Source: Alphaproteobacteria bacterium (GTDB lineage: Bacteria > Pseudomonadota > Alphaproteobacteria > Sphingomonadales > Kordiimonadaceae). Taken from it: 38,594 nucleotides of DNA. A program made the position numbers and the translations under genes. The stretch lies in assembly GCA_013372925.1 (NCBI GenBank), contig JABXIV010000091.1, positions 1-38,594 on the forward strand. The letters run 5' to 3'. Below are positions 8,498 to 38,594 of the stretch, piece by piece. The notes below the pieces were generated by a model. The model saw only the letters and a list, made by a program, of their open reading frames with translations. It ran no database searches and was not told where the DNA came from. Each line of letters opens with the position of its first letter. The stretch's first letter is position 1.

Positions 8498-9061
8498 ATG
8501 AAAGGATTGTTTTCCTTTGCGCAATCACTTCAGCGTATTAGCAACAGCATTGGGCGCTTTTCGGCATGGGCAATCGTGCTGCTGGCGCTTGTGATTATCA
8601 CAGATGTTGTTTTGCGGCGTTGGTTCGTGATTGGTTCCACCAAACTGCAGGAGATGGAATGGCACCTGCACGGCTTCCTGTTTCTCATGTGTCTTGGTTG
8701 GGCCTATTCAAAGAATGCTCATGTTCGAATTGAACTAGTAAGCGAACGGCTTTCCCTGCGCACGCATGCCTGGATTGAACTTATCGGTTGCGCCCTGTTC
8801 CTGCTACCCTATGTCGCCGCGGTTCTGTGGTTCGGTTTTGACTATGTTAGCTATAGCTGGGCCTACAACGAAGCCTCTGCCTCACCGACAGGCCTGCCCG
8901 ATCGCTGGATAATAAAGAGCGCTATTGTCATCGGGTTTGCGATGCTGGGTTTCGCGGCACTGGCTCGCCTTATCTACGCCGGTATCTATCTATTCGGCCC
9001 CAAGGCACTTGCTGAACAAACGCCATTTTCCCACACAGAACCACAAACGGGAGAAAGCTGA
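8498..9061 (+). CDS. dctQ: TRAP transporter small permease (DctQ)
   Basis: 4-TM protein between dctP and dctM; ORF-track start at 8489 is TTG, ATG at 8498 preferred. Confidence 0.9.
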   Translation: MKGLFSFAQSLQRISNSIGRFSAWAIVLLALVIITDVVLRRWFVIGSTKLQEMEWHLHGFLFLMCLGWAYSKNAHVRIELVSERLSLRTHAWIELIGCALFLLPYVAAVLWFGFDYVSYSWAYNEASASPTGLPDRWIIKSAIVIGFAMLGFAALARLIYAGIYLFGPKALAEQTPFSHTEPQTGES

Positions 9062-10422
9062 TGGATGTATTCATCGAATTTCTGCCGTTCCTGATGTTTG
9101 CGGTGCTAACACCGCTGCTGTTCACCGGCTTTCCTGTGGCCTTCATCCTGGGCGGTGTCGGTCTCGCATTCTGGCTTCTCGCGGTTGCATTGGGACTTGA
9201 AAATAGCAACAGCTTCTTCCTGATTGTTGGGCGCATTTTCGGCGGCGTGGTGAACAAACAAGTGTTGGTTGCCATCCCCATGTTTATCTTCATGGGTACA
9301 ATGCTTGAAAAAAGCGGCGTCGCCCGGTCACTACTGCATACACTGCAACTCATGACACGGCGCATTCCCGGCGGATTGGCACTCTCTGTCACCCTTCTCG
9401 GGGTTATCCTTGCCGCAACAACCGGCATCATCGGGGCCAGCGTTGTGATGATGACACTACTGGCGTTGCCTGTAATGATCGAACGCGGCTATGACAAAGC
9501 GCTAGCCTCCGGCACGATTGCAGCCTCTGGCACGCTTGGCATCCTATTGCCACCGTCTATTATGCTGGTGGTGATGGCTGACTTGCTCTCCACTTCTGCG
9601 GGCGGATTGTTCATGGCAGCGATTGGCCCTAGCCTCCTGTTGGCACTGCTTTACATGTTATACATCCTAATTCGCACAACACTGAAACCTGAGCTCGCTC
9701 CAGCGCTCGGGGCTGAAGCCGCGAAAGGCCAACTCTCGCTTAGCGTTGTTATAAAAAGCTTCCTCCCCCCTATTCTGCTGATTGTCGCAGTGCTCGGCTC
9801 TATCTTTGGTGGCTTCGCGACACCAACTGAAGCCAGCGGGGTTGGCGCAGTCGGCGCTCTAATCCTAGCTGCAGTAAACAAAAAACTGTCTTTCACGACA
9901 CTTAAAAACGTCGTTGAACAGTCTGCGTTGACATCAACCATGCTATTTGGCTTGTTTGTTGGTGCAACGGCCTTTTCGTTCGTCTTTGCGCTGTTGGGCG
10001 GGCATGACTTGATCCTCCACCTGCTGGAAACCGCAGGCGCTGGCCCTTGGCTTGTGCTGGCCGTTTTGATGCTGGCAGTATTTGTGCTGGGCTTCTTTTT
10101 CGACTGGATCGAAATTACCCTGATCATCCTGCCTGTATTCGCCCCGGTTATTGCTCAACTGGATTTTGGCAACCATCTGATTGACCCAAGCCTGACGCTT
10201 TCTTGGTTTGCAATCCTGATGGCAGTAAATCTGCAAACAAGCTTCCTGACACCACCCTTCGGTTTTGCTCTTTTTTATATGAAAGGTGCCGCGCCAAGCT
10301 CAGTGAAGCTCACAGATATCTATCGCGGCATTATCCCTTTCGTATTGCTGCAGCTTCTGGGCCTGGCAATGCTTCTGGCATGGCCTGAAATTGCCCTATG
10401 GCTACCGAGAGTGTCTGGTTAA
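9061..10422 (+). CDS. dctM: TRAP transporter large permease (DctM)
   Basis: 453-aa multi-TM; GASVVMMTLLALPVMIERGYDKALASGTIAASGTLGILLPPSIMLV and FATPTEASGVGAVGALILA are DctM signatures; overlaps the dctQ stop. Confidence 0.95.
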   Translation: MDVFIEFLPFLMFAVLTPLLFTGFPVAFILGGVGLAFWLLAVALGLENSNSFFLIVGRIFGGVVNKQVLVAIPMFIFMGTMLEKSGVARSLLHTLQLMTRRIPGGLALSVTLLGVILAATTGIIGASVVMMTLLALPVMIERGYDKALASGTIAASGTLGILLPPSIMLVVMADLLSTSAGGLFMAAIGPSLLLALLYMLYILIRTTLKPELAPALGAEAAKGQLSLSVVIKSFLPPILLIVAVLGSIFGGFATPTEASGVGAVGALILAAVNKKLSFTTLKNVVEQSALTSTMLFGLFVGATAFSFVFALLGGHDLILHLLETAGAGPWLVLAVLMLAVFVLGFFFDWIEITLIILPVFAPVIAQLDFGNHLIDPSLTLSWFAILMAVNLQTSFLTPPFGFALFYMKGAAPSSVKLTDIYRGIIPFVLLQLLGLAMLLAWPEIALWLPRVSG

Positions 10423-21381: not shown

Positions 21382-23709
21382 TTATTCGCCCCAACGATAG
21401 GTAAAGCGTGCACCAAATGTACGTGGACGGCTGATACCGAAACCGTGGCCAGGGAAGAAATCCCCACCTTCGGAAGTGCCGTCAAAGTACATACGGTTGA
21501 AGATGTTTTCCACATAGGCAACAACTTGCCAGCCGTTGAAGCTTTCGTAGCCAACACGTGCTGAGAAGTCAGACCAACCTTCCTGGGCATACAGCTCGAT
21601 ATTATCGAGGCCGCCATAGGTCTTGGTTTGTGTGCGGAAATCAACAGACGCGTTGAACTCACCATTGTCACCAACAGGCGTGTGATAGCTCACAAGACCA
21701 GAGAAAGTGAACTTAGGTGTGCCCGGCAACGTGTTGCCATCAACACCTTCAGCGACGATCGGATCAACATTGCTGATCTCGTTGTCATTATAGGAAACAG
21801 CGAAGAACGTATCGATGTTCTTGTTCACAATCGCCTGCACTGTACCTTCCATACCCCAGGCCTTCACTTTACCCACGTTGGTAACGCGCGTGCCCTTGTC
21901 GAAGTAGTTCAACTGAAGGTCTTTGTAGCGGTAGTGATATGCGCTAAGGTCAAGCCGGATACGGCGATCAAACATGTCGCCTTTCGCGCCCACTTCATAC
22001 GACCAAACAGTTTCAGGATCGAACTGGTTCAGCGTTGCATTCAACGCAACCAGGTCGTCCGTCACGTCGTCGTCATCAGCTTCAACTGCGAAGCTACCAA
22101 AGCCGCCCGCTTTAAAGCCTTTGGTCGCACTGGCGTAGATCATCCAGTCATCATTCGGGCGATAACGCGCAATGAAACGTGGCGTAACGTCGTCCCAGGA
22201 ATGCTTACCGGTTACAGGGCCATCAGTGGTTACACCAAATGCCCAGAATGGCCCAAGCTCGCTCTCAACAGGCAGGATATTGTTGGAAAATTCCTTGGTG
22301 TCCTTGCTGTAACGCAGACCAACACCCAGTTCGAATTTGTCGTTCAGGGCATAGGTCATGTCCACATATGCGCCCCAGCCTTCGTACGTGCCGCTAACTT
22401 TGTTGGCTTCAAGAAGACCGACTTCGCTTGGCGTAAACTCCCCCCAACCGTAGTAAGCGAAAACTTCAGAACAAGAATAGTAATAGTACACTTGGCACAT
22501 CACGTCTTCGTCTGCGCGCTGGCGGAAGTGCGCATCAATGTTCTCCTTATAGTAGGAAACACCGGCGTACCAGCTAAGCGGCCCGTCACTATTGGAAACC
22601 AGACGCAATTCCTGCTCGAAATAGTCGCCGGACTGATCTTGGCCATAGTCGTTGAAGCCGATCGGCATGCCGTCAAAGTCTTCGGCATAGGAATAATCGT
22701 GGTCTTTATAGCCTGTCATGGACGTAAGAGTTGCGAACTCAAGGTCCACGTTAATGTCCGCGCTAAGGGAAAGAACTTCACCGCGGTCGTAGTTGCCCAG
22801 CTTCTGATCTGCGCCAACGTCACGCTTGTTGCCACCCGGGAAAACATTCTCTTCGCCCAGCATGTTCTTCAGGTGCTGCACAATTGAGAAATCCACGCTC
22901 GGATCAGTATCATCACGGATTAGGCGGTAGATAGAACCGGACTGGTCGCGGTCCTCATATTCCACCATGAAAGTTGCATCCCAAGTATCGCCGCGCGTTG
23001 CAGCCGTTGCACGGAATGCAGATTTGTCGTGCGCTACCAATTTGTCATCATTTGGGAAGGCTGTGTTGTCAACGTAGCCATCTTCCTCGCTGTGGTATCC
23101 AGCAAGACGAAGGGCGAAGTTATCGGACACTGGCAGGTTCACTGCTGCTTCCGCCTCGAAAATACCGCGTTCACCAATACCGGCTTCAACATGACCGGAC
23201 TGGTTATCAAAGTCTGGCTTCGACGTATGAAGGCTTACAGCACCGCTGATTGCGTTACGGCCAAACAGGAAGCCCTGTGGGCCACGAAGCACTTCAGCGC
23301 GCTCCATATCGAACATGGACGTCACAACAACGCCGTTACGTCCTTGGTATAGGCCGTTTTTGAAGAAACCAACTGACGGGTCGCCACCGACACCGAAGTC
23401 GTTCGTGGAGATACCGCGAATATTGATGTAGTCGATGAAGCTGTCTTTACTGTCGCCGGAAAAGCCTGGCGCGAATTTCACAAGGTCTTTCACGTCATCA
23501 AGATTGACACGTTTGGTGAAGTTGGCATCGAATGCCGTAATGGAAACAGGCACATCTTGCGTGGATTGTGCCCGCTTCTGTGCAGTGACCACCACTTCTT
23601 CAATGGCCAATTCATCTTGCGCAATCGCTGCGCCACCGGCAAGCAGCATCGCGCCAACTGACGCCCCTGCAGCCAATGACCAATTGCGGGTTCGATGGAC
23701 AGTTTTCAT
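21382..23709 (-). CDS. TonB-dependent outer-membrane receptor
   Basis: 775 aa; signal peptide; EEVVVTAQKRAQSTQDVPVSITAF TonB box/plug; plug-domain RGPQGFLFGRNAISGAVSLHT; C-terminal FGARFTYRWGE ending a beta-barrel. Confidence 0.96.
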   Translation of the reverse strand: MKTVHRTRNWSLAAGASVGAMLLAGGAAIAQDELAIEEVVVTAQKRAQSTQDVPVSITAFDANFTKRVNLDDVKDLVKFAPGFSGDSKDSFIDYINIRGISTNDFGVGGDPSVGFFKNGLYQGRNGVVVTSMFDMERAEVLRGPQGFLFGRNAISGAVSLHTSKPDFDNQSGHVEAGIGERGIFEAEAAVNLPVSDNFALRLAGYHSEEDGYVDNTAFPNDDKLVAHDKSAFRATAATRGDTWDATFMVEYEDRDQSGSIYRLIRDDTDPSVDFSIVQHLKNMLGEENVFPGGNKRDVGADQKLGNYDRGEVLSLSADINVDLEFATLTSMTGYKDHDYSYAEDFDGMPIGFNDYGQDQSGDYFEQELRLVSNSDGPLSWYAGVSYYKENIDAHFRQRADEDVMCQVYYYYSCSEVFAYYGWGEFTPSEVGLLEANKVSGTYEGWGAYVDMTYALNDKFELGVGLRYSKDTKEFSNNILPVESELGPFWAFGVTTDGPVTGKHSWDDVTPRFIARYRPNDDWMIYASATKGFKAGGFGSFAVEADDDDVTDDLVALNATLNQFDPETVWSYEVGAKGDMFDRRIRLDLSAYHYRYKDLQLNYFDKGTRVTNVGKVKAWGMEGTVQAIVNKNIDTFFAVSYNDNEISNVDPIVAEGVDGNTLPGTPKFTFSGLVSYHTPVGDNGEFNASVDFRTQTKTYGGLDNIELYAQEGWSDFSARVGYESFNGWQVVAYVENIFNRMYFDGTSEGGDFFPGHGFGISRPRTFGARFTYRWGE

Positions 23710-23841
23710 AGTCTGCTCCTCCCCTAAGGATTCCCCGAAACAGTTCGGGCGGTTTCAAAGAGCACAGGCCATCTCAAACCAGTTGCTCTCATGTTATACG
23801 ATGGGTTCGGCACCAGCCCCGTTGCTAGCGCCATTCCCGGT

Positions 23842-25476
23842 TTATTTGGGCTCCCCAATGAGCCCGGCATCTTTGAGAACCGAAACCATCGGCCCCAAAT
23901 GTCCTTCAAACTTCTTCCACCTGCCAACTGAACGCGTGTGAGCTTTTTCTCTCACCTGTGCAGCACTAGCCGTCGTTACAGCGGTGTCCTGATTGTGGAA
24001 ATCAACGCATGCGTCTTGCCAATCAAGGCCAAGGAAATTGATAATACGGCGCGCGTTCGGCTCTAGATCCTGCACTACTTCCTCATAATCCACATCCAGG
24101 ATGCGATCGCCGAGCACTGTGCGCCAACGGTTCATCAATTTGCGATACCGTATATGATGGCGCGCCATCTCTTCCTGATCATACGAATGGTAGTAGGCCT
24201 CAGCGAAAAGCTGTTTATAGCTTGCGAAACAGCTATCCATTGGATCGCGAACAATATGAATGATTTTGGCATTGGGCAGCGCGGCCGCAATCAAAGGCAA
24301 ATACAAATAGTTCACCGGCATCTTGTCGATGAAATGCGGCATATCTGGCTGAACCGATTTGGTTGTCTCCAAATAGAGCGAACCAAGCTCTTTCATATCA
24401 AGCGCCGGCGCTTTTTCAATGATCTCTGCTGTCATCGGCTTGGGCGATGCCATTTCCGTCAAACGCTTGATGGCCATCGCGAACTGCTGCAATTCGCCCG
24501 CCGAGCCAACGTCTGAATGAGCCGTGATAATCCTCTCCACAAGCGTGGTGCCTGTGCGTGGCTGCCCAACGATGAAGATCGGCGCTGTGCTATCCGCCCC
24601 TTCTGCCACTTGGCCAAACCATTCCTCATCCAGAACTTTTTCAAGCGTATTGAACAGCGCAGCTTCTGCGTCTTCGTCATAATGAAGCTGGCTTCGGCGC
24701 GCCTTTGCGCCCGCATCATAGGCTTCAAAAGATTGGTCCCAAGCCTCAAGGTCTTCGAATTCCTTGCCGATGGCATACTCAAGAAACGCATGGCTTGGAT
24801 GACCTTCAGGCAAGCGATCTGTGATCCCTTTCATAGCCTCGATATGGTTTTCATCTGAGGCCTTACCGAGGCGTGACAACATCCAATGCGCCATCCCGTC
24901 ATCTGGTTTTTCAGCCAAAACTGCCTTCAATGCAGTTCCTGCTTCCTCCAACCGGCCAAGGAAGGTCAGCGCCTTCGCCCGGCTTAACTCAAAGAAAGTG
25001 GATTTGCCGCCAGCCATAGCCCGATCGAACCAATAGAGTGCCTTTTCCTGGTCGCCGAGAATGCTGTGCACGTTGCCAATAACATCCAGAACGAGCGGGT
25101 CTTCCGGGTTGTTGTTTTCTGCATTGATGACGGCTTTCTCAGCCAGAGAAAACTGCCCCATCTTTGCACAGCACCGGGCCAACTGGGCCCAGCCCGCTGC
25201 ATGACCTTCATCAAGAGAAACAACGTTTTTGAAGGCACGACGAGCAATATTCCAGTCGCCGCTTTCAATGCCAACGAGCCCAACAAGGAAATGAGCTTCA
25301 ACAAGCTCGGGATGATATTTCAGGACAAGGTTGCAGCAGCCGCCGGCTTCCTTGAAGTCACGCCGCATAAGAGCCTGATAGCCCCGTCGTAGGAACTTGG
25401 CGACATCAGCCTGCCCCATGCCCCTTGGGGCTGAAGATTGCTGACGGGCTCCTGATATGCGGCTGTTTGAATTCAT
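23842..25476 (-). CDS. Tetratricopeptide repeat-sulfotransferase fusion protein
   Basis: N-terminal TPR units (ALMRRDFKEAGGCCNLVLKYHPELVEAHFLVGLVGIESGDWNIARRAF...), C-terminal sulfotransferase with 5'-PSB motif APIFIVGQPRTGTTLVERIITAHSDVGSAGEL and IIHIVRDPMDSCFASYKQLF. ATG at 25494 is also possible. Confidence 0.93.
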   Translation of the reverse strand: MNSNSRISGARQQSSAPRGMGQADVAKFLRRGYQALMRRDFKEAGGCCNLVLKYHPELVEAHFLVGLVGIESGDWNIARRAFKNVVSLDEGHAAGWAQLARCCAKMGQFSLAEKAVINAENNNPEDPLVLDVIGNVHSILGDQEKALYWFDRAMAGGKSTFFELSRAKALTFLGRLEEAGTALKAVLAEKPDDGMAHWMLSRLGKASDENHIEAMKGITDRLPEGHPSHAFLEYAIGKEFEDLEAWDQSFEAYDAGAKARRSQLHYDEDAEAALFNTLEKVLDEEWFGQVAEGADSTAPIFIVGQPRTGTTLVERIITAHSDVGSAGELQQFAMAIKRLTEMASPKPMTAEIIEKAPALDMKELGSLYLETTKSVQPDMPHFIDKMPVNYLYLPLIAAALPNAKIIHIVRDPMDSCFASYKQLFAEAYYHSYDQEEMARHHIRYRKLMNRWRTVLGDRILDVDYEEVVQDLEPNARRIINFLGLDWQDACVDFHNQDTAVTTASAAQVREKAHTRSVGRWKKFEGHLGPMVSVLKDAGLIGEPK

Positions 25477-25480
25477 GTTG

Positions 25481-26794
25481 CTATCCCAGTGCATCCTTCA
25501 TTCGGTAATAAGCCATACCAATGGCTTGCAACGGCTGCGCAAAAATTTGCCCACCCGGGAATGGAGGATGCTTGATTTTTTCCATGATATCAAAGCGTTC
25601 GAACTGTCCAGCGATCGCTTCCGCGATCAATTTTGCAGACATGTGCGTCGCTGCCACACCATGCCCGGAATAAGCCTGGGCAAAATAGACATTTGGCTTC
25701 AAGCGGCCAACCTGAGGAATGCGGTTCAAACCAATCCCCATATAACCGCCCCAACTATAATCGACCTTCACGTCTTTAAGCTGAGGGAAAACCTTCAGCA
25801 TGTTTGGCTTTACAGCGGCCACAATATCACGTGGATGCCGACCAGAATATGTTGCCAAGCCGCCAAACAGCAGGCGCTTATCTGCACTCAGACGGAAATA
25901 ATCCAGTGCCCAACGCTGATCACACACCGCAAAATCTGCCGGCATGATCTCGGCGGCAAGCTCGTCGCTTAACGGCTCTGTTGCAACAATATAGCTGCCC
26001 GCAGGTAGCACACGCGAAGCCAACTTGGGCACAAGCCTGCCAAGATAGGCATTGCCGCCCAGAACAACCATGTCGGCCTTGATACGGCATGTATCCATAT
26101 CAAGGGTTACATGGTCGTCTGCGAAATCCATTTTAGAAACCCGGGCATCTTCAAAGATACGCACACCGAGTTTTTCTGCAGCACGCGCTTCACCGCGCAC
26201 AAGATTGAGCGGATGGCAATGCCCCCAGCCCATATTGGTTACACCGCCAATATAGCGATCTGAACCAACGATTGATTTCACCTGGTCAGCACCGACGACC
26301 TTCTGCTCTGGCTGATACCCAAAGCCGATGAGCGTTTCCATGGACTCTTTCAGTTCGTCCATTTCGCGCTCTTTCATCGCGGCATCGAAGTACCCCCACT
26401 TCAGATCACAGTCGATATCGTATTTCTCGACCCAATCCTTGATGATGTCCACGCACTCTACGCCCATCTCCCAAGCTGCGCGCGCATTGTCCTTGCCAAA
26501 GACTTTCTCGATTTTCGAAAGGTTCGACAGTTCCGGTCCATAGCCGCCAATCACCTGGCCACCATTGCGGCCAGACGCCCCCCAGCCGATCTTGTTTTGT
26601 TCAACTAGCGCAACCTCATAGCCCCGCTCTGCAAGATGCAGGGCCGCAGCAACACCTGTAAAGCCGCCACCAACAACGCATACATTTACCTTCAGGTTGC
26701 CCTCAAGGCGTGCAAACGACTTCAGGTCATTACACGTCGCAGCGTAATAGGATGGTGGCAATTGATCGTTGTGGATAGAATCGCGGATACGCAT
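25481..26794 (-). CDS. puuB: FAD-dependent oxidoreductase, gamma-glutamylputrescine oxidase type
   Basis: NVCVVGGGFTGVAAALHLAERGYEVALVEQNKIGWGASGRNGGQVIGGYG and GGYMGIGLNRIPQVGRLKPNVYFAQAYSGHGVAATHMSAKLIAEAI; adjacent to puuA and gabD. Confidence 0.9.
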   Translation of the reverse strand: MRIRDSIHNDQLPPSYYAATCNDLKSFARLEGNLKVNVCVVGGGFTGVAAALHLAERGYEVALVEQNKIGWGASGRNGGQVIGGYGPELSNLSKIEKVFGKDNARAAWEMGVECVDIIKDWVEKYDIDCDLKWGYFDAAMKEREMDELKESMETLIGFGYQPEQKVVGADQVKSIVGSDRYIGGVTNMGWGHCHPLNLVRGEARAAEKLGVRIFEDARVSKMDFADDHVTLDMDTCRIKADMVVLGGNAYLGRLVPKLASRVLPAGSYIVATEPLSDELAAEIMPADFAVCDQRWALDYFRLSADKRLLFGGLATYSGRHPRDIVAAVKPNMLKVFPQLKDVKVDYSWGGYMGIGLNRIPQVGRLKPNVYFAQAYSGHGVAATHMSAKLIAEAIAGQFERFDIMEKIKHPPFPGGQIFAQPLQAIGMAYYRMKDALG

Positions 26795-26801
26795 AACGCC
26801 T

Positions 26802-28160
26802 CTATATAATTCTTAGATACTGCTCGTAATCTGCGGCGCTGATCTGACGGTGGAAGTCTTCTTCCTCAGACCGGCGAACGCTCAGATACAATTCAACAAA
26901 TTCCTTGCCCAGATAGGCAGGCATTACTTCACTTTTCTCAAGGACATCTAGGGCAATACGCCAGCGGGGCGGCAATACGCCCGCAAAGTCCACCAAATCA
27001 AACTCGCCAAGGGGCTCGCCCGGGTCACACTTTGCGTCAAGGCCATGGAATGCCCCGGCCAAAATGGCTGCCACGACCAGATGCGGGCACACGTCCGCAC
27101 CACATACCCGGTGTTCAAACCTGCGGTTGGCGTCATCACTAAGCGGCAGGCGCACACTCAGGCGACGGTTATTTTCACCCCAGTTGGGAACAACAGGCGC
27201 AAACCATTCCGGATCAAAGCGGCGGTAGCTGTTGGCGTTCGGCGCAAAGAAGGCCGTTGCCTCAGGCATCGTATCAAGAAGGCCGCCCACTGCGTTCTTG
27301 AGCCTTGCCTCCCCCTCTTCGCCAGAGAATATATTCTGGCCGTTTTCATCAAGCACACTCACATGAGCATGCAAGCCGTTACCAACCTCGTCAAATGTTG
27401 GTTTGGCCATAAAGCTCGCCAACAATCCATGTTTCAGGGCCACAGCCTTCACCGCACGCTTCAAAAGCAATGCGTCATCACAAGCTTTCTCAACATCCGA
27501 CGTGTGCTGCAGGTTCACTTCGAATTGGCCATTGCCGTATTCACAAACAAGGCCGATTACATCCAGACCCTGCTCCCGGCACCCTTCCTCGATTTCCTGC
27601 ATCAAGCCTTCGAAATCGTAGAAAACATCCATATTGTAGCAGTTGGCGCCATTTGCCGGAGCCATACCATTTGGTGGCGCAACAGGTTGCGGAGGTACCG
27701 TGCCTGCTTCAAACAAGAAGAATTCATACTCAAGAGCAATAACAGGGCGTAGGCCCTGTCCAGAATATTTCGCGAGGACACGCTTCAATACCGTACGAGG
27801 GTCCATAAAGAACGGCGTTCCATCACTGTCCTGCATTGTAACAAGGATTTGTGCCGTTGGGCGCACAGCCCACGGCACAATGCGTAGTGTTCCTTCAACA
27901 GGCATACAAATCCGATCTGGGTCACTACCATAATCGTCCAGAATGCTCTCGGCATTCGCACCATTGGTTGTCAGGAACGTGGTTGTAATAGGAAATGGCA
28001 CGCCATTTTTTGCCAGCTTCTTCAATCCAGATACGGGCATTTGCTTGCCGCGGAAGATGCCATTCATGTCGGCAAGCAATACTTCCACGGTTTCCACATC
28101 TGGATGAGCCTTCAAAAAGGCTTCTATTTCCTTATCAACTGGCATTTTGGCTGTACTCAC
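26802..28160 (-). CDS. puuA: Glutamine synthetase family protein, gamma-glutamylpolyamine synthetase type (paralog 1)
   Basis: VLLADMNGIFRGKQMPVSGL; YEFFLFEAG; GNGLHAHVSVLDENGQNIFSGEEGEA; NSYRRFDPEWFAP. GTG start at 28160 with SD GGCGGGGA; ATG at 28145 possible; the 28235 start in the track is inside gabD. Confidence 0.88.
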   Translation of the reverse strand: MSTAKMPVDKEIEAFLKAHPDVETVEVLLADMNGIFRGKQMPVSGLKKLAKNGVPFPITTTFLTTNGANAESILDDYGSDPDRICMPVEGTLRIVPWAVRPTAQILVTMQDSDGTPFFMDPRTVLKRVLAKYSGQGLRPVIALEYEFFLFEAGTVPPQPVAPPNGMAPANGANCYNMDVFYDFEGLMQEIEEGCREQGLDVIGLVCEYGNGQFEVNLQHTSDVEKACDDALLLKRAVKAVALKHGLLASFMAKPTFDEVGNGLHAHVSVLDENGQNIFSGEEGEARLKNAVGGLLDTMPEATAFFAPNANSYRRFDPEWFAPVVPNWGENNRRLSVRLPLSDDANRRFEHRVCGADVCPHLVVAAILAGAFHGLDAKCDPGEPLGEFDLVDFAGVLPPRWRIALDVLEKSEVMPAYLGKEFVELYLSVRRSEEEDFHRQISAADYEQYLRII

Positions 28161-28161
28161 A

Positions 28162-29616
28162 TTAAATCCCCGCCATGCAGAGATATTTAATTTCCACATA
28201 ATCCTCGATCCCGTAGCGAGAACCTTCCCGCCCAAGACCGGATTGTTTCACACCACCAAACGGTGCAACTTCGGTAGAAAGAATGCCGGTATTGATCCCA
28301 ACCATTCCGTATTCCAGAGCCTCTGCCACACGCCAAACGCGGGACAGATCACGGGCATAGAAATATGATGCCAAGCCGAATTCAGTGTCATTTGCCTGGG
28401 CAACCACATCGGCTTCATTTTCAAAACGGAACACAGGCGCCACAGGGCCAAACGTTTCTTCGCGGGCTACTTTCATTTCTTTGGTAACGTCGCGAAGGAT
28501 TGTCGGCTCAAAGAAGCTGCCACCCAACGCATGACGCTTACCGCCCGTTACAAGCCCTGCACCTTTTGAAAGCGCGTCTTCGATGTGTTCTTCAACCTTC
28601 TCAACAGCTTCGTCGTTAATCAGCGGCCCCTGCGCCACACCATCTTCCACGCCATTGCCCACTTTCATAGCAGTAACTTTTGCTGAAAGTTTTTCGACGA
28701 ATGCGTCATACACTCCTGCCTGTACATACAGGCGGTTTGCACAAACACAAGTCTGGCCGGAGTTCCGATACTTTGACGCCATGGCGCCTTCAACGGCTGC
28801 ATCAATATCAGCATCGTCAAACACGATAAACGGTGCATTACCGCCAAGCTCAAGCGACACTTTCTTGATATCATCCGAACACTGACGCATCAAAACGCGC
28901 CCAACTTCGGTAGATCCAGTGAAAGTCAGTTTCCTGACAGTCTGGTTTTCACACATCTCGCCGCCGATCTCGCGAGACTTTTTACCAACAACAATATTAA
29001 GAAGCCCCTTCGGCAAGCCAGCCCGCTCAGCAAGTTCAGCCAACGCCAAAGCAGAAAGCGGTGTCTCAGCAGCTGGCTTCACAACAACCGGGCAGCCAAC
29101 AGCCAGCGCCGGTGCCACCTTGCGCGTAATCATCGCATTCGGGAAATTCCAAGGCGTAATTGCGGCCACAACACCGATCGGCTGTTTAAGCACGATAATC
29201 CGCTTGTCTGCCTGATGCTGGGGGATCACATCCCCATATACCCGCTTACCTTCTTCCGCGAACCATTCAATAAAGCTGGCACCATAGGCAATCTCGCCAC
29301 GTGCTTCCGCCAGAGATTTACCCATCTCGGCAGTCAGGATTTGCGCAAGGTCTTCCTGCGCATCCATGATCAACTGATACCATTTCTTGAGAACCCTGGA
29401 GCGCTCAGCAGCAACAAGGCCGCGCCATTCACCAAAGGCGCGCTCTGCCGCTTCGATAGCCTGACGCGTCTCAACAGCTCCCAAATTGGGAAGCACTGCC
29501 ACAACATCGCCAGTGGCTGGGTTCTTGACCTCAAACGTATCACCGTCTGCGGCGTCAACCCATTTACCATCAATATAGGCCTTGTCTTTCAATAAGGCGC
29601 TGTCACTCAACTTCAT
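28162..29616 (-). CDS. gabD: Succinate-semialdehyde dehydrogenase
   Basis: PIGVVAAITPWNFPNAMITRKVAPALAVGCPVVVKPAAETPLSALALAELAERAGLPKG; FTGSTEVGRVLM; LELGGNAPFIVF; NSGQTCVCANRLYVQ; GLGREGSRYGIEDYVEIKY is GabD-type. Confidence 0.94.
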   Translation of the reverse strand: MKLSDSALLKDKAYIDGKWVDAADGDTFEVKNPATGDVVAVLPNLGAVETRQAIEAAERAFGEWRGLVAAERSRVLKKWYQLIMDAQEDLAQILTAEMGKSLAEARGEIAYGASFIEWFAEEGKRVYGDVIPQHQADKRIIVLKQPIGVVAAITPWNFPNAMITRKVAPALAVGCPVVVKPAAETPLSALALAELAERAGLPKGLLNIVVGKKSREIGGEMCENQTVRKLTFTGSTEVGRVLMRQCSDDIKKVSLELGGNAPFIVFDDADIDAAVEGAMASKYRNSGQTCVCANRLYVQAGVYDAFVEKLSAKVTAMKVGNGVEDGVAQGPLINDEAVEKVEEHIEDALSKGAGLVTGGKRHALGGSFFEPTILRDVTKEMKVAREETFGPVAPVFRFENEADVVAQANDTEFGLASYFYARDLSRVWRVAEALEYGMVGINTGILSTEVAPFGGVKQSGLGREGSRYGIEDYVEIKYLCMAGI

Positions 29617-29888: not shown

Positions 29889-29951
29889 TTTATTTTCGAA
29901 TTCTGACAACACTCGGCCTTCAGTCGAGATTTTTCGATAGGTGTATTCTTG

Positions 29952-31238
29952 GTGCAACAGATCAAACATACCGGCTCATATTATGCCGCAAGCGCAAACG
30001 ACACACGCGAGCGAGCACGTCTCGAAGGTGATATTGAAGCGGACGTTTGCATCGTAGGTGGCGGCTTCACAGGTGTTGTGACAGGCCTGACGCTCGCTGA
30101 ACTCGGCTACAATGTCGTCATTCTGGAAAGCGCTAAAATTGGCTGGGGTGCATCTGGTCGCAATGGTGGCCAGATCGTGAATGGCTTTAGCCGCGAGATT
30201 GCTTACATCGAAAAGAATGCAGGCCCTGAAGGCGCCAGCGCACTGGCGGACCTGGCACTGGAAGGCGGCAACATCATCCGTGAACTGGTGGCAAGATACG
30301 GCATCAAGTGTGACCTTAAATACGGTTCGATCCTAGCCGCCTGCACTCAAAAACAACTGCGCGATATGGAAGCGACAAAAGACATGTGGGCCGGGCGCGG
30401 CCGCAACGGTCTTGAAATGCTAAACAGCCACACGATTCGCGATCATGTGGGCACAGATAAATATGTTGGTGGCTGGATTGACCACAAAGGCGGCCACATT
30501 CATCCCCTTAATCTTGTTCAGGGCGAAGCCGCCGCAGCCGAAAAGCTTGGTGCGCGCATTTTTGAACAAACCCGCGTTACATCGGTTGATCATCATTTGG
30601 ACAATCCAGTTGTGCACACGGAAGGCGGTTCAGTTAAAAGTAAATATGTCGTTCTTGCCGGTAATGCTTATCTCGGAAAAACCGTGAAACAGCTCTACCC
30701 CAAAATCCTACCGGCGAGCACACAGATTATTGTTACTGAACCGCTTTCCGATACTATGGCCAAAGAGCTGATACCGTCTGACATGTGCGTGGAAGACGCC
30801 AATTATGTGCTCGACTACTTTCGCCTCACTGCTGACAAACGCCTCCTCTTTGGTGGCGGCACCGTTTATGGCGGCGAAGATGTTGAAGACGTTGAAAAGG
30901 TTCTGCGCCCGAACATGGAAAAGATCTTTCCTGCTGCAAAAGACCTCAAAGTGGAATTTGGCTGGCAAGGCAACATTGCGCTTACGTGGTCACGCCTTCC
31001 ACATGTGGGACGCCTTGGCAAAAACACGTTTTTCTCCCATGGTTACAGCGGGCACGGCGTGACAAGTACTCATATGATGGGTCGGCTTGTCGCCCATGCG
31101 CTTCATGGCGAAGCCAATGAGTTTGATATCTTTGCTGGCATGCCAGCCAGGAGCTTCCCTGGTGGGCAGGTCTTAAGCGCACCATTGAGCACACTTGGCT
31201 GCTGGTGGTATTCAATGCGGGACAAACTCGGTATCTAA
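29952..31238 (+). CDS. puuB: FAD-dependent oxidoreductase, gamma-glutamylputrescine oxidase type (paralog 2)
   Basis: DVCIVGGGFTGVVTGLTLAELGYNVVILESAKIGWGASGRNGGQIVNGFS; WSRLPHVGRLGKNTFFSHGYSGHGVTSTHMMGRLVAHAL. Start is TTG (29949) or GTG (29952). Confidence 0.92.
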   Translation: MQQIKHTGSYYAASANDTRERARLEGDIEADVCIVGGGFTGVVTGLTLAELGYNVVILESAKIGWGASGRNGGQIVNGFSREIAYIEKNAGPEGASALADLALEGGNIIRELVARYGIKCDLKYGSILAACTQKQLRDMEATKDMWAGRGRNGLEMLNSHTIRDHVGTDKYVGGWIDHKGGHIHPLNLVQGEAAAAEKLGARIFEQTRVTSVDHHLDNPVVHTEGGSVKSKYVVLAGNAYLGKTVKQLYPKILPASTQIIVTEPLSDTMAKELIPSDMCVEDANYVLDYFRLTADKRLLFGGGTVYGGEDVEDVEKVLRPNMEKIFPAAKDLKVEFGWQGNIALTWSRLPHVGRLGKNTFFSHGYSGHGVTSTHMMGRLVAHALHGEANEFDIFAGMPARSFPGGQVLSAPLSTLGCWWYSMRDKLGI

Positions 31239-31272: not shown

Positions 31273-32133
31273 ATGACCGCAGAGCGACGAATATTGGGTG
31301 TGAAGCCAGAAACGCTGTTTCAAGCTTTCAAATACACTATCTACACGCTCATCTTTTTCAATCTCGTGTATTTTATGCGGGAAGAATATATCGCAACAGC
31401 GACCCGTTTCCCTGACGGCGTGGGCCTTGGGCACCTGATTGACGCGTTCTCACAGTCAACAGATTCATTCGCCTGGCTCGTCCTTTTGCTAACGTTCGAG
31501 CTTGAAACATACATCATTCCAGATGAAAAGCTGAAAGGCCCGCTTAAGTGGGTTTTAAACGGCATCGCGGGTGTCTGTTATCTGCTGATCACCCAGGCGC
31601 TGCTTGGCTATGTCAATCACATGGAAGAGATTTTCAATTTCGTACCCTACGCAAACGGTACGGCATGCGCTGCGGTAGGCACTGTGCAGGCGCTTGCCGT
31701 AGATCTTTATGAGTTTGCAGACCTGACAGCGCAAAATTGCAGCACCATCGACTCATCCGCTCTGTTTTATCATGAGGGCCTGAACGCCATCACCGACCAA
31801 AGTTATCTGCTTTACATGGAAGAGCTTGCCGTTACGGATGTGATCAACGCTTCTACCTGGCTGCTGATTGTTCTTGTACTTTGGATCGATATTTTCCTGC
31901 AACTGCGCGGGGAGCTTACAGAAAAGCTCTACAAATGGAACGGCATCGTCAAAGCCTTCCTGTATCTGACCTTGATCGTATGCTGCTCTTACTGGGCTTG
32001 GCTCGGTGATTTCATGGGCTTTTGGGATGCCTTCCTGTGGATTCTGGCCTTCTTTTTCATCGAACTGAACCTGTTTAAATGGCATGAAGCAGAAATCGAG
32101 CATGCCGAGCATGCTACGGAGACCCAATCATGA
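31273..32133 (+). CDS. Uncharacterised multi-pass (about 6 TM) membrane protein in polyamine operon
   Basis: 286 aa from ATG 31273; six hydrophobic segments, Cys-containing loop (TACAAVG...QNCSTI), His/Glu-rich tail (WHEAEIEHAEHATETQS); stop overlaps puuD start (32130-32133). Confidence 0.85.
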   Translation: MTAERRILGVKPETLFQAFKYTIYTLIFFNLVYFMREEYIATATRFPDGVGLGHLIDAFSQSTDSFAWLVLLLTFELETYIIPDEKLKGPLKWVLNGIAGVCYLLITQALLGYVNHMEEIFNFVPYANGTACAAVGTVQALAVDLYEFADLTAQNCSTIDSSALFYHEGLNAITDQSYLLYMEELAVTDVINASTWLLIVLVLWIDIFLQLRGELTEKLYKWNGIVKAFLYLTLIVCCSYWAWLGDFMGFWDAFLWILAFFFIELNLFKWHEAEIEHAEHATETQS

Positions 32134-32924: not shown

Positions 32925-34286
32925 ATGTATGATGCAAAGCGCATCGAAGAGCTGGATAGCTGGTTGAAATCTGAAAACATCGACGACATCGAATGTATGG
33001 TCGCCGATAACGCTGGCATTGCACGCGGCAAATCCATGCCCCGCGTCAAATTCATTGAAGGCCTCAAAAGCCGTGGCCTGAAACTGCCAGAAACTGTCTT
33101 TGGCATGACCATCACAGGTGATTACGCACTGAACGATCATTTGTCGGAAACAGAGCGCGACGTGATCTTGATGCCAGACTTGGACACACTCTGCACCACC
33201 CCGTGGCAGCCAGAACCGACTGCCACGGTTATCTGTGATGCGGAACTTGAGAACGGCGACCCATGCGTGTTTTCACCACGGCAACTTCTCAAGCGTATTC
33301 TGAAGCTTTATGAGAACGAGGGCTGGCAACCAATCGTGGCGCCTGAGTTCGAGTTTTACTTAATTGATCGCCAAGAAGATGTTGAATCTACTCCAGTTCC
33401 GCCAATCGGGATGTCTGGTCGCAGGGACGTTGGCTCAGCACCATATTCTGTCGACAGCCTAGACGAACACGCGGCCTATTTCGATGATGTCTATGACGCT
33501 TGTGAAGCTCAGCGCATTGATGTGGATGAACTTATCCATGAAGCTGGCCCAGCCCAGTATGAATTCAATGTAACGCATGGCCCTGCCCTTCAGGTAGCCG
33601 ACCAGTCGTTCCTGTTTAAACGGATTCTGCGTGCGATTGCTATTCGCCACAACATGTTCTGTACTTTCATGGCAAGCCCATACCCAGATTCATATGGCAG
33701 CGCCATGCACATCCACCAATCGGTTGTCGACATGGAAACCGGCAAGAACATTTTTGCCAATGAAGACGGAAGTCATTCCGACCTGTTCCTCAACCATATT
33801 GCTGGCCTGCAGAAATATCTGCATGAAACCATGCCACTGTTTGCCCCATTCGTGAACAGCTACCGCCGTTTCTCGCTGGCTTGGTCTGCGCCGACCAACA
33901 CACACTGGAGCCGCGAAAACCGCTCCGTTGGTTTGCGTGTTCCGGGGGGGCCGAAAGAGGCGCGTCGCGTTGAAAACCGTATCGCCGGTTCGGATGCAAA
34001 CCCTTATTTCGCGATCGCAACATCGCTTGCTTGCGGTTACTTGGGCATGAAAGAGGGTCTGGAACCTTTAGCGGAATTCAAAGGCTCTGCCTATGAAGCA
34101 CGTGGCAAAGCACTGCCTCGCCACTTCCTTGAAGGCATGAAAAACATGCGGCGCAGCAAAGCGATCAAGGAAATCTTCGGCGAAGGCTTTGTGGAAACCT
34201 ATCTGGATGCCAAGGAAATGGAATACGACAGCTATTCGTCTGTTCTAAGCCCTTGGGAAACCAAATATCTCTTGCTTACGGTGTAA
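32925..34286 (+). CDS. puuA: Glutamine synthetase family protein, gamma-glutamylputrescine synthetase type (paralog 2)
   Basis: IECMVADNAGIARGKSMPRVKF; PEFEFYLID; GSAMHIHQSVVDMETGKNIFANEDGSHSDLFLNHIAGLQKY; NSYRRFSLAWSAPTNTHWSRENRSVGLRVPG. Confidence 0.94.
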   Translation: MYDAKRIEELDSWLKSENIDDIECMVADNAGIARGKSMPRVKFIEGLKSRGLKLPETVFGMTITGDYALNDHLSETERDVILMPDLDTLCTTPWQPEPTATVICDAELENGDPCVFSPRQLLKRILKLYENEGWQPIVAPEFEFYLIDRQEDVESTPVPPIGMSGRRDVGSAPYSVDSLDEHAAYFDDVYDACEAQRIDVDELIHEAGPAQYEFNVTHGPALQVADQSFLFKRILRAIAIRHNMFCTFMASPYPDSYGSAMHIHQSVVDMETGKNIFANEDGSHSDLFLNHIAGLQKYLHETMPLFAPFVNSYRRFSLAWSAPTNTHWSRENRSVGLRVPGGPKEARRVENRIAGSDANPYFAIATSLACGYLGMKEGLEPLAEFKGSAYEARGKALPRHFLEGMKNMRRSKAIKEIFGEGFVETYLDAKEMEYDSYSSVLSPWETKYLLLTV

Positions 34287-34291
34287 AGATT

Positions 34292-35671
34292 ATGAACCAG
34301 ATTTCGAACCAAACGAAGTTCTGGCAAAGCCAGGACGCAGACCATCACCTGCACCCGTTCACCGCGCACCCACAACTGCGCGACCGTGGTGTACGCATGA
34401 TCACGGGCGCCAAAGGCGTATATCTTGAAGATAGCGAGGGCGAAAAAATCCTCGATGGCATGGCCGGCCTTTGGTGTGCCCAAATCGGCTATGGCAACGA
34501 GGAAATGGTTGAAGCAGCGGCAGACGCCATGCGGAACCTGAGTTACTACAACCTGTTCTTCATGACATCACACCCTTATGCCACAGAGCTTGCCGCCAAA
34601 ATCGCAGAAAAAGCGCCCGGCAATATCAATCAGGTACTGTTCGCCTGCTCTGGTTCAGAAGCAGTTGATAGCGCCTATAAGCTGATCAAATATTACTGGA
34701 ACCTGAAAGGCCAGCCACAGCGCAAACAGTTCATTGCCCGCGAACGGGCCTATCACGGCTCTACCACTGTGGCGGCCTCCCTGTCTGGTCTGACCGGCAT
34801 GCACCCACAGTTTGACCTGCCGATTGAAGGCATTCACCATGTGGGCCCAACGCCGCACCACTATAAATTTGGTGGCAACTTGAGCGAGGAAGAATTTTGC
34901 GACGAGTGCGTGAAAGCCGTTGAGGACAAAATCCTTGAGCTTGGCCCTGAAAATGTCGCCGCCTTCGTTGGTGAGCCGGTTATGGGCGCTGGCGGCATGA
35001 TGCCGCCACCTGAAGGCTATTGGCCAAAGATCGAAGCTGTATGCCGCAAATATGGTGTACTGATGTGGTGCGATGAAGTCATCACCGGCTGGGGCCGCAC
35101 GGGTGAGTGGTTCGGCTCCCAGCATTATGGTGTTCAGCCTGACATTATCACTATGGCTAAAGGCCTGTCATCCGGGTACCAGCCGATTTCTGCGGTTGCC
35201 CTTGGCGGTGACATCGCAGATGAGATCGCCAAAAGCGACGAAGAAATGGTGCACGGTTTCACATATTCCGGTCACCCTGTTGCTTGCGCCGTCGCGCTCA
35301 AGAACATTGAGATTCTGGAACGCGAAGGCCTCGTGGCCACAGACAAGGCGCAGGAGCGCATTGCCTACTTCAATGAAAAACTGAGCACCCTTGCTGACCA
35401 TCCGCTTATCGGGCAGGTCCGCACCGTAGGGATGCTTGGCGGCCTTGAAATCGTGAAGAACAAAGAAACCAAAGAGCTGTTTGATGACGAGCTCGACGTT
35501 GGTTTCAAATGCCGTGAAAACTGTTTCAAGAACGGCCTTGTGATGCGGCATGTGGGCAATTCCATGATTCTGTGCCCGCCACTGATAATCACCCACGACG
35601 AGATTGACGAGCTTGTTGAAAAGGCCCGACTTGCGCTGGACCTGACGGCAAAAGAAATCGGCATGATGTAA
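34292..35671 (+). CDS. Class III aminotransferase, putrescine/GABA:pyruvate type
   Basis: HHLHPFTAHPQLRDRGVRMITGAKGVYLEDSEGEKILDGMAGLWCAQIGYG; ITMAKGLSSGYQPISAVALGG; adjacent to puuA and puuC (SpuC-like). ATG at 34292 preferred. Confidence 0.92.
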   Translation: MNQISNQTKFWQSQDADHHLHPFTAHPQLRDRGVRMITGAKGVYLEDSEGEKILDGMAGLWCAQIGYGNEEMVEAAADAMRNLSYYNLFFMTSHPYATELAAKIAEKAPGNINQVLFACSGSEAVDSAYKLIKYYWNLKGQPQRKQFIARERAYHGSTTVAASLSGLTGMHPQFDLPIEGIHHVGPTPHHYKFGGNLSEEEFCDECVKAVEDKILELGPENVAAFVGEPVMGAGGMMPPPEGYWPKIEAVCRKYGVLMWCDEVITGWGRTGEWFGSQHYGVQPDIITMAKGLSSGYQPISAVALGGDIADEIAKSDEEMVHGFTYSGHPVACAVALKNIEILEREGLVATDKAQERIAYFNEKLSTLADHPLIGQVRTVGMLGGLEIVKNKETKELFDDELDVGFKCRENCFKNGLVMRHVGNSMILCPPLIITHDEIDELVEKARLALDLTAKEIGMM

Positions 35672-35681
35672 GGAGTACCCC

Positions 35682-37178
35682 ATGACTGAAAAAACATTGG
35701 GCTATTGGCAGGCCAAAGCCAAGGAAGCCAAGATCCACACGCAGGCCTATATTGGCGGCGCGCGCGTTGACGCAGCCTCTGGTGAGACCTTTGAGACAAT
35801 CAACCCAGCAACAGGCGAAGTTCTGGCGCATGTTGCATCCTGTGATACAGCTGACGTAGATAAAGCCGTTGCAGAAGCACGCAAAGCCTTCACTAGCGGC
35901 ATCTGGGCCAATCTTCACCCAACCGAGCGCGGCAAGGTGATGATCAAATTCGCTGATCTCATTGAAAAACATGCCGATGAGTTAGCCGTCCTTGAAGTTC
36001 TGGATATGGGCAAGCCCATTTCCGACGCGACATCCATCGACATTCCGGCCTGCGTGAATTCAATCCGTTGGTATGGCGAAGCCGCCAACAAGGTGCTGGA
36101 CGAAATCGCCCCAACAGACCCGTCAGCGCTCGCGATGATTACACGGGAGCCTATTGGCGTTGTGGCAGCCGTTGTGCCGTGGAACTTCCCACTTCTGATG
36201 GCATGCTGGAAACTGGGCCCTGCCCTTGTAACAGGCAACTCGGTAATCCTGAAGCCAGCAGAGCAATCACCGCTTACAGCCCTTCGGATCGCTGACCTTG
36301 CAGAAGAAGCGGGCATCCCGGCTGGCGTATTCAACGTTGTACCAGGGCTTGGCCATACAGCAGGCAAGGCGCTTGGTCTTCACATGGACGTGGATGGGCT
36401 TGCGTTCACTGGCTCCACACAGGTTGGCAAATATTTCATGGAATATTCCGGCCAATCGAACCTGAAGCGCATTGCACTTGAGTGTGGCGGCAAAAGCCCG
36501 CACATCATCATGGATGACTGCCCTGACCTTGACGCCGCCGCACAAGCTGCCGCAGGCGCTATCTTCTTCAACCAAGGCGAAGTCTGCACGGCAGGTTCCC
36601 GCCTCCTGGTTGACCGCAAGATCAAGGACGAGTTCATGGCCAAGGTGCTTGAAGCCGCAAAAGGCTGGGTGCCAGGCGACCCACTGAACCCAGCAACCAA
36701 CCTTGGTGCCATTGTGGACGATAGCCAATACAAGCGCGTACTTGGTTATATTGAAACAGCTGCGAAAGACGGCGGCAAGCTGGTAGCTGGCGGTTCGGCC
36801 GCACGCACAGAGACAGGCGGCTATTTCGTGCAACCAACCATCTTTGATGGCGTGAAGCCTGAAATGACCATTGCTCGGGAAGAGATTTTCGGCCCGGTAC
36901 TGGCTGTAATCGAATTCGACGGCGAAGAAGAAGCCATCGAGATCGCCAACAACACCATCTACGGTCTCGCTGCCGCTGTATGGAGCAAGGATATCAGTAG
37001 GGCACACCGGATGGCGCGTGCGCTGCAAGCAGGAACGGTCTGGGTCAACTGTTGGGATCCAACGGGTGATCTTTCCATCCCATTCGGCGGATACAAGCAG
37101 TCTGGGTTTGGGAGAGACAAATCCCTGCATGCACTGGATAAATACACGAACCTCAAGACAACTTGGGTTCAGCTTTGA
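35682..37178 (+). CDS. puuC: Gamma-glutamyl-gamma-aminobutyraldehyde dehydrogenase
   Basis: EPIGVVAAVVPWNFPLLMACWKLGPALVTGNSVILKPAEQSPLTALRIADLAEEAGIPAGVFNVVPG; LECGGKSPHIIMDDCPDLDAAAQAAAGAIFFNQGEVCTAGSRLLV; VWVNCWDPTGDLSIPFGGYKQSGFGRDKSLHALDKYTNLKT. Confidence 0.94.
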   Translation: MTEKTLGYWQAKAKEAKIHTQAYIGGARVDAASGETFETINPATGEVLAHVASCDTADVDKAVAEARKAFTSGIWANLHPTERGKVMIKFADLIEKHADELAVLEVLDMGKPISDATSIDIPACVNSIRWYGEAANKVLDEIAPTDPSALAMITREPIGVVAAVVPWNFPLLMACWKLGPALVTGNSVILKPAEQSPLTALRIADLAEEAGIPAGVFNVVPGLGHTAGKALGLHMDVDGLAFTGSTQVGKYFMEYSGQSNLKRIALECGGKSPHIIMDDCPDLDAAAQAAAGAIFFNQGEVCTAGSRLLVDRKIKDEFMAKVLEAAKGWVPGDPLNPATNLGAIVDDSQYKRVLGYIETAAKDGGKLVAGGSAARTETGGYFVQPTIFDGVKPEMTIAREEIFGPVLAVIEFDGEEEAIEIANNTIYGLAAAVWSKDISRAHRMARALQAGTVWVNCWDPTGDLSIPFGGYKQSGFGRDKSLHALDKYTNLKTTWVQL

Positions 37179-37235: not shown

Positions 37236-38594
37236 ATGGAAGCTGCTGCGGAAATTGGCCATCACGGGCTCATCACGCTGATCCCGACCCTTGTGGTCCT
37301 GTTACTGGCTGTAACGCTGAGAAGGCCAATTGAAGCCCTGATCATTGGTGCAGTTGTCGGCATCATCATGATTGACGGTAGCGATTTCGTCACTGTCACT
37401 GCGGAAACTTCCATGCGGGTGCTCGCCGACGATGACCTGATCTGGGTTATCCTTGTGTGCGGTGCGATGGGCAGCCTGATCGGGCTTCTGATACGCACTG
37501 GCTCGCTTGCGGCTTTTGTCGAACTTGTCACCAAACGCGTGAAGACGCGTTTTGGCGCCCTGATGGCAACCTGGGTGCTGGGCATCGCGCTTTTTGTGGA
37601 TGATTACCTGAACTCGATCACCGCTGGTGCGGCCATGCGGAAAATCACCGATACGTACCGTATCAGCCGCGAAATGCTGGCCTATGTGATCGACAGCACC
37701 GCCGCACCTGTAAGTGTGATCATCCCGCTGTCCACATGGGGCGTGTTTTTCGCGTCGCTCCTCGAGGACACAGGCCTGGCCGCGGACGGCCAGGGCCTTT
37801 GGGCTTATATTTCGGGCATTCCCTATATGCTTTATGCATGGATTGCCCTCGCTATCGTACCATTTGTTGCAGCTGGCAAATTCCCGTTGATCGGCCCAAT
37901 GAAAAAAGCCGAATACCGGGCACAGGAATATGGCCAGACAATCCCCCCCGGGGCCGAACACATTCAGGCTGCAAATGAAACCATCACTGAAAAAGAAGGT
38001 GTGAAGCGAAACCTTTGGATGTTTGTATTGCCGCTTTGCAGCCTTGTGGGCTTCACCATTTATTACGACATGGAATTCCTGCCGGCCACATATGCAACAC
38101 TTGGCCTTATGACCATCGCTGTGCTTGGTCTAAGAATTCTTGATCATCACGACACCTTCAACACCATCATTGATGGCTTCAAAACCATGATTGAGGCGCT
38201 AGCGATCATCTTCGCAGCCTATATGCTGAAGGATATTAACGGCCAACTTGGCCTCACGAACTACATTCTGGAATTGACCACACCTTTCATGACGGCAACA
38301 ACCCTGCCCTTCATCATATTTGGCGTGATGGGCTTAATCGCCTTCGCGACTGGGTCAAGCTGGGGCATGTTTGTTATCGCGCTTCCGGTAATTGCCGAAC
38401 TGACACAGGCTACAGGGGCCCATGTGCCACTTGTTATTGGCGCAACCCTATCAGCCAGCACATTTGGCAGCCACGCCTGCCTATATGCCGATGCAACTGT
38501 ACTGACAGCGCAAAGTTGTGGCACAACATCGATCCAGCATGCTTTATCACAATTGCCTTTTGCAGTGGTTGGTGCGCTATTATCCTTGATTGGG
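37236..38594 (+). CDS. NhaC-family Na+/H+ antiporter, partial (runs off window)
   Basis: Frame open from ATG 37236 (RBS GGAGGA) to window end: MEAAAEIGHHGLITLIPTLVVLLLAVTLRRPIEALIIGAVVG...ATWVLGIALFVDDYLNSITAGAAMRKITD...ATGSSWGMFVIALPVIAEL...ASTFGSHACLYADATVLTAQSCG. Absent from ORF track because no stop lies in the window. Confidence 0.88.
   Translation, partial: MEAAAEIGHHGLITLIPTLVVLLLAVTLRRPIEALIIGAVVGIIMIDGSDFVTVTAETSMRVLADDDLIWVILVCGAMGSLIGLLIRTGSLAAFVELVTKRVKTRFGALMATWVLGIALFVDDYLNSITAGAAMRKITDTYRISREMLAYVIDSTAAPVSVIIPLSTWGVFFASLLEDTGLAADGQGLWAYISGIPYMLYAWIALAIVPFVAAGKFPLIGPMKKAEYRAQEYGQTIPPGAEHIQAANETITEKEGVKRNLWMFVLPLCSLVGFTIYYDMEFLPATYATLGLMTIAVLGLRILDHHDTFNTIIDGFKTMIEALAIIFAAYMLKDINGQLGLTNYILELTTPFMTATTLPFIIFGVMGLIAFATGSSWGMFVIALPVIAELTQATGAHVPLVIGATLSASTFGSHACLYADATVLTAQSCGTTSIQHALSQLPFAVVGALLSLIG

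Follow-up and report, generated by a model that had tools for sequence, protein, structure and literature searches.

A conserved six-helix membrane protein of Puu-type amine-degradation loci in Kordiimonas and relatives, and its candidate role in amine uptake

Polyamines serve marine bacteria as a nitrogen source, which SAR11 uses via PotABCD (PMC8437039), and the Puu pathway of Escherichia coli has been reviewed together with its transporters PuuP, PlaP, and PotFGHI (PMC11998418). We analyzed a whole contig of 38,594 bases (G000:C10, hereafter the window) in which a Puu-type operon encodes, between PuuB-like and PuuD-like enzymes, a small membrane protein with six predicted transmembrane helices (6-TM). 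What is this protein, and could it be the one that brings the amine across the inner membrane to the enzymes encoded around it?

The 6-TM gene and its operon

The gene (31273–32133, forward strand) extends from an ATG at 31273 to a TGA at 32131–32133 and encodes 286 amino acids; its stop codon and the start codon of the PuuD-like gene (at 32130) interlock in the four bases ATGA. The reading frame, its six hydrophobic segments, and the stop/start coupling to puuD, all named in the original prediction, were reproduced in coordinates, translation, and overlap. Because the frame stays open in approximately 40 genomes, and pN relative to the two nearest orthologues (approximately 0.18–0.20) is far below a nearly saturated pS (approximately 0.75), this is a real and conserved coding gene.

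The window contains a Puu-type (gamma-glutamylation) amine-degradation locus, with PuuA-, PuuB-, PuuC-, and PuuD-type enzymes all present. On the forward strand, a PuuB-like FAD-dependent oxidoreductase of the DAO family (29949–31238) precedes the 6-TM gene, which is followed by a PuuD-like gamma-glutamyl hydrolase (Peptidase C26; 32130–32879), a PuuA-like member of the glutamine synthetase family (32925–34286), a class III aminotransferase of the PRK07480 subfamily that scores above the curated cut-off (34292–35671), and a PuuC-like aldehyde dehydrogenase (35682–37178). The Puu enzymes are named here at the family level and miss the substrate-specific, strict NCBIfam equivalog cut-offs, the PuuA-like enzyme that for gamma-glutamylputrescine synthetase and the PuuC-like enzyme that of PuuC, its best family; for this reason the substrate of the pathway may be an amine other than putrescine. 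A second, divergent set of genes faces the puu operon on the reverse strand (25481–29616), encoding an FAD oxidase, a PuuA-like glutamine synthetase, and a succinate-semialdehyde dehydrogenase that exceeds the GabD cut-off. Also on the reverse strand (21382–25494) are a TonB-dependent receptor and a TPR-sulfotransferase fusion protein, which recur beside puu loci in 31/46 and 30/46 family loci, respectively. A TonB-dependent receptor at this site suggests that the natural substrate is perhaps larger than free putrescine.

Directly after puuC lies a gene of the NhaC-type Na+/H+ antiporter family with a PF03553 match (37236–38594, forward strand), cut by the contig end. The operon had been described as containing no other transporter, which is correct for APC permeases and ABC importers but overlooks this gene. 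The puu operons of L053, L054, L055, L056, L058, L061, and L095 also end with an NhaC-type gene; in L053, among the relatives of the window, a GntR/FCD regulator comes next. It is possible that the NhaC-type protein is an amine transporter in its own right.

Family, distribution, and linkage to puu genes

Searches of Pfam, NCBIfam, PHROGs, and PDB sequences with the 6-TM protein, and of the PDB with a 34-member profile, returned no match above noise. Searched singly against Pfam, the 34 members gave sub-threshold noise only (YmiC in three of them, every other match in one member each), and we rejected assignment to any known family, in agreement with the original prediction, which had recognized none. 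Literature searches turned up no description of a protein like this one, and the viral contigs and plasmids searched contained no relatives. The protein is a conserved, unnamed membrane component of Puu loci for which Pfam and NCBIfam have no model; remote kinship to a known superfamily, beyond the reach of the profile searches used, is possible. AlphaFold2, given an alignment of three sequences (the window protein and two orthologues), returned a mean pLDDT of 45 and a pTM of 0.32, too low for the model to be usable.

The 6-TM protein resembles PuuP and PlaP, the APC permeases of the E. coli Puu system, in being encoded with puuA, puuD, puuB, and puuC and in its presumed function of substrate import. 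PuuP is a 12-TM permease of approximately 460 amino acids; whereas PuuP-type APC permeases have about 12 TM segments and 450–500 residues, the protein described here has six hydrophobic segments in 286. It has no AA_permease or AA_permease_2 match in Pfam or NCBIfam, and its 34 homologues have no APC match. Searches for BPD_transp_1 and PF03553 in the protein were likewise negative, which speaks against membership in the Pot-type ABC importers and in the NhaC family.

The family is present in 41 of 151 genomes of its own order (Kordiimonas and relatives) and in 42 of 401 in a wider sampling; a sample of approximately 384 further alphaproteobacterial genomes contained two with the family, from another order, and in another class three of the 149 genomes of a single order carry it. 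The closest named relative is the Kordiimonas gwangyangensis orthologue (L003; 69% identity), and an orthologue from an alphaproteobacterial metagenome-assembled genome (L002) shares 74% identity. In the phylogenetic tree the window protein groups with its two Kordiimonas-type orthologues (100/100), and four copies from the other class nest inside the main clade. A divergent sister clade at 21–25% identity (L048:9544–10464, reverse strand; L050:10306–11223, forward strand; L049; L051) adjoins SSF symporters, amine-oxidase-like FAD proteins, or AraC/SnoaL regulators, and is possibly the same device serving another substrate.

Within approximately 10 kb of 46 family loci, the most frequent neighbor is a PuuB-type FAD oxidase (38/46), followed by a class III aminotransferase (36/46), PuuD/GATase (34/46), PuuA-type glutamine synthetase (33/46), and PuuC/SSADH-type dehydrogenase (22/46). 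Since puuA occurs about once per genome, this linkage is not a matter of chance. The 4-base overlap with puuD recurs in more than ten loci, and the puu association extends to the other class (L082, L083, L086, and L087). In one of these (L083:4967–7071, forward strand) the 4-bp overlap of the family member is with a beta-lactamase/serine hydrolase gene (PF00144) rather than with puuD. Four intact copies have no adjacent puu genes (L039, L041, L042, and L046) and sit mostly on long branches. The neighborhood check proposed with the original prediction thus revealed linkage that is both strong (33–38 of 46 loci for PuuA, PuuD, PuuB, or the aminotransferase) and phylogenetically broad, and there is strong support for the conclusion that the family travels almost exclusively with genes for the breakdown of putrescine-like amines.

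The prominence of the PuuB-type oxidase, often immediately adjacent, raises the question of whether the 6-TM protein is its membrane partner, acting as an anchor, a scaffold, or an electron route to the respiratory chain. We regard this as very unlikely: many Kordiimonas loci have the oxidase gene in a divergent, non-adjacent position, the helices carry no conserved His or other heme or quinone ligand (a role in binding either cofactor is accordingly disfavored), and the only invariant cysteines lie in an outer loop. PuuB-type oxidases, moreover, use O2 in known cases.

Might the amine instead be carried by a separate secondary transporter (NhaC-type in the window, SSF or APC elsewhere), with the 6-TM protein as its accessory or regulatory subunit? 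An NhaC-type gene accompanies the family in the window and in six of 46 other family loci, and lies beside a family fragment in L095; an SSF symporter gene occurs in eight of the 46. In the divergent clade the protein lies 19–28 bp from an SSF symporter (L048 and L050), and the puu locus of G061 contains an SSF gene, with the family copy elsewhere in the genome. Of 35 genomes carrying the protein, 32 encode APC permeases at other sites, and together with the NhaC-type and SSF genes these weaken any argument from the lack of another transporter in the operon. However, no single transporter family consistently goes along with the 6-TM protein, approximately two-thirds of the loci lack both NhaC and SSF nearby, and in many loci the 6-TM protein is the sole polytopic protein detected. 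An accessory role is, on balance, rather unlikely.

Across the 151 genomes of the order, 35 have both the protein and puuA, six the protein alone, 14 puuA alone, and 96 neither; in the window's own family-level clade the corresponding counts are 21, two, zero, and seven, so that puuA accompanies the protein in 21 of 23 genomes of the clade and is found in none of the seven without it, although the Fisher values for these co-occurrences ignore relatedness and are descriptive only. Of the two exceptions in the clade, G104 is an incomplete genome whose copy is a fragment, and G059, which has no puuA match, has a frame-broken copy (L047:9501–10368, forward strand) that suggests decay once the pathway was lost. 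A PotH-type polyamine permease is encoded in all 14 genomes of the order that have puuA without the protein, versus two of the 35 that have both, a contrast that represents few independent events, because it mostly divides whole clades and is confounded by phylogeny. In both of the latter genomes PotH is on another contig, and Pot permeases were found in none of the 46 family loci within approximately 10 kb, whereas in several of the 14 the PotH-type permease lies inside the puu locus, as in L097 (puuA-puuB-GS-PotF-PotH-PotI-PotG, with best hits to polyamine ABC transporter models). Related puuA-bearing genomes without the 6-TM protein thus have PotFGHI or PotABCD in the corresponding kind of locus; these are multi-subunit ABC importers with an ATPase and a binding protein, and no subunit resembles the 6-TM protein. 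Of the roles offered in the original prediction (transporter, channel, or sensor), the replacement pattern favors transport over sensing.

Conserved residues and a three-fold hairpin repeat

The distribution of charge fits an inner-membrane topology with both termini inside and two long loops outside. The outer loops are acidic; loop 3 of the window protein has ten Asp or Glu residues and no Lys or Arg. The 34-member alignment contains 22 positions that are invariant or nearly so: K20, Y24, N30, D64, W68, E76, E78, T79, C132, C156, W196, D206, Q210, K227, Y231, W241, D252, W256, F260, E264, N266, and W270, of which D206 is conserved least strictly (Asp or Glu in 30/34). The acidic residues noted earlier in or at the helices are those of TM2 and TM6. 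The loop with two cysteines is as first described, with C132 and C156 (codons 31666–31740, forward strand) invariant in all 34 sequences and presumably forming a disulfide that pins this putatively periplasmic loop. By contrast, a His/Glu-rich C-terminus did not survive the alignment as a feature, the tail being variable, acidic, and unconserved.

By profile comparison, the protein is built of three tandem 2-TM hairpins sharing the motif W-x7-E-x-[E/D/N], an architecture newly described here. The predicted units, all on the forward strand, are TM1-TM2 (residues 12–88; 31306–31536), ending in W68-x7-E76-x-E78; TM3-TM4 (residues 86–216; 31528–31920), with the Cys loop inserted and W196-x7-[E/W/Q]204-x-D206; and TM5-TM6 (residues 214–276; 31912–32100), with W256-x7-E264-x-N266. 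They align in a single register, from a Tyr in the odd helix to [D/N]-xxx-W-x7-E-x-[E/D/N] in the even helix. The first acidic position of the middle repeat, 204, is Glu in 16 of 34 members and Trp in ten, including the window protein.

Comparison with hhalign gave E = 5.7e-6 for hairpins 1 and 2 (reached by none of 200 column shuffles), 7e-4 for hairpins 1 and 3, and 3e-3 for hairpins 2 and 3 (each reached by one of 200). TM2-3 aligned with TM4-5 at 7e-7, and a reversed control gave nothing. As controls we compared 188 hairpin pairs taken from shallow alignments of five unrelated membrane families. Four reached such E-values, each over 6–8 aligned columns, which we attribute to columns shared by neighboring hairpins; the remaining 184 gave no comparable match.

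Distant short relatives from another family of the order (G123, L052:9415–10089, reverse strand; G1223, L090, approximately 8940–9600, forward strand) retain the core but lack the Cys loop, which suggests that the loop was inserted into repeat 2; they apparently represent a minimal six-helix core. No puu-type neighbor was found around the short relative in L052.

The mitochondrial carrier family offers an analogy, being likewise composed of six TM segments arranged as three 2-TM repeats, each bearing a charged motif. Its motif, PX[DE]XX[KR], is on the odd helices, whereas W-x7-E-x-[E/D/N] is on the even ones; PX[DE]XX[KR] is absent from the 6-TM family alignment, there is no Pfam match, the two share no sequence similarity, and we propose no kinship. 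An Asn in TM1 and an acid in TM2 also recall voltage sensors, but this is a resemblance only, with no charged S4 and no pore loop.

A candidate amine importer

The protein is small, bound to puu genes, repeat-built, and acidic on its outer face, and a polyamine ABC importer is absent; for these reasons we consider the membrane step of amine uptake to be the best reading, and assign a probability of about 0.5 to the hypothesis that the 6-TM protein moves a putrescine-like amine across the inner membrane alongside the Puu-type pathway, in place of PuuP or PotFGHI. The protein would reside in the inner membrane with both termini inside and work with the gamma-glutamylation enzymes. Its acidic extracytoplasmic face and the loop presumed to be pinned by a disulfide would attract the amine cation, and the three E-x-[E/D/N] sites, in register close to where TM2, TM4, and TM6 are predicted to meet the cytoplasm, would together make up an acidic path or binding site with pseudo-threefold symmetry.

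Conserved acids on the cytoplasmic side would equally suit binding from within, as in an exporter, a safety valve, or a sensor that guards against or reports high internal amine, and in L082 an SMR-type exporter gene follows the family member. Yet the protein has no soluble signaling domain, many loci already encode a GntR-type or cupin-XRE-like regulator, and catabolic loci need import more than export, so that we judge such functions distinctly unlikely. Returning to uptake, we suggest more tentatively that the protein could found a new family of transporters, as a minimal cation carrier or channel of six helices with pseudo-threefold symmetry, and that it may replace PuuP or PotFGHI as the polyamine importer for the gamma-glutamylation pathway in marine alphaproteobacteria.

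Even if merely accessory, the protein is a conserved and hitherto unnamed component of Puu-type loci. If it is an amine importer, it would represent a new transporter family with a simple three-fold repeat architecture, and would supply the uptake step that is missing from polyamine utilization in a marine bacterial group.
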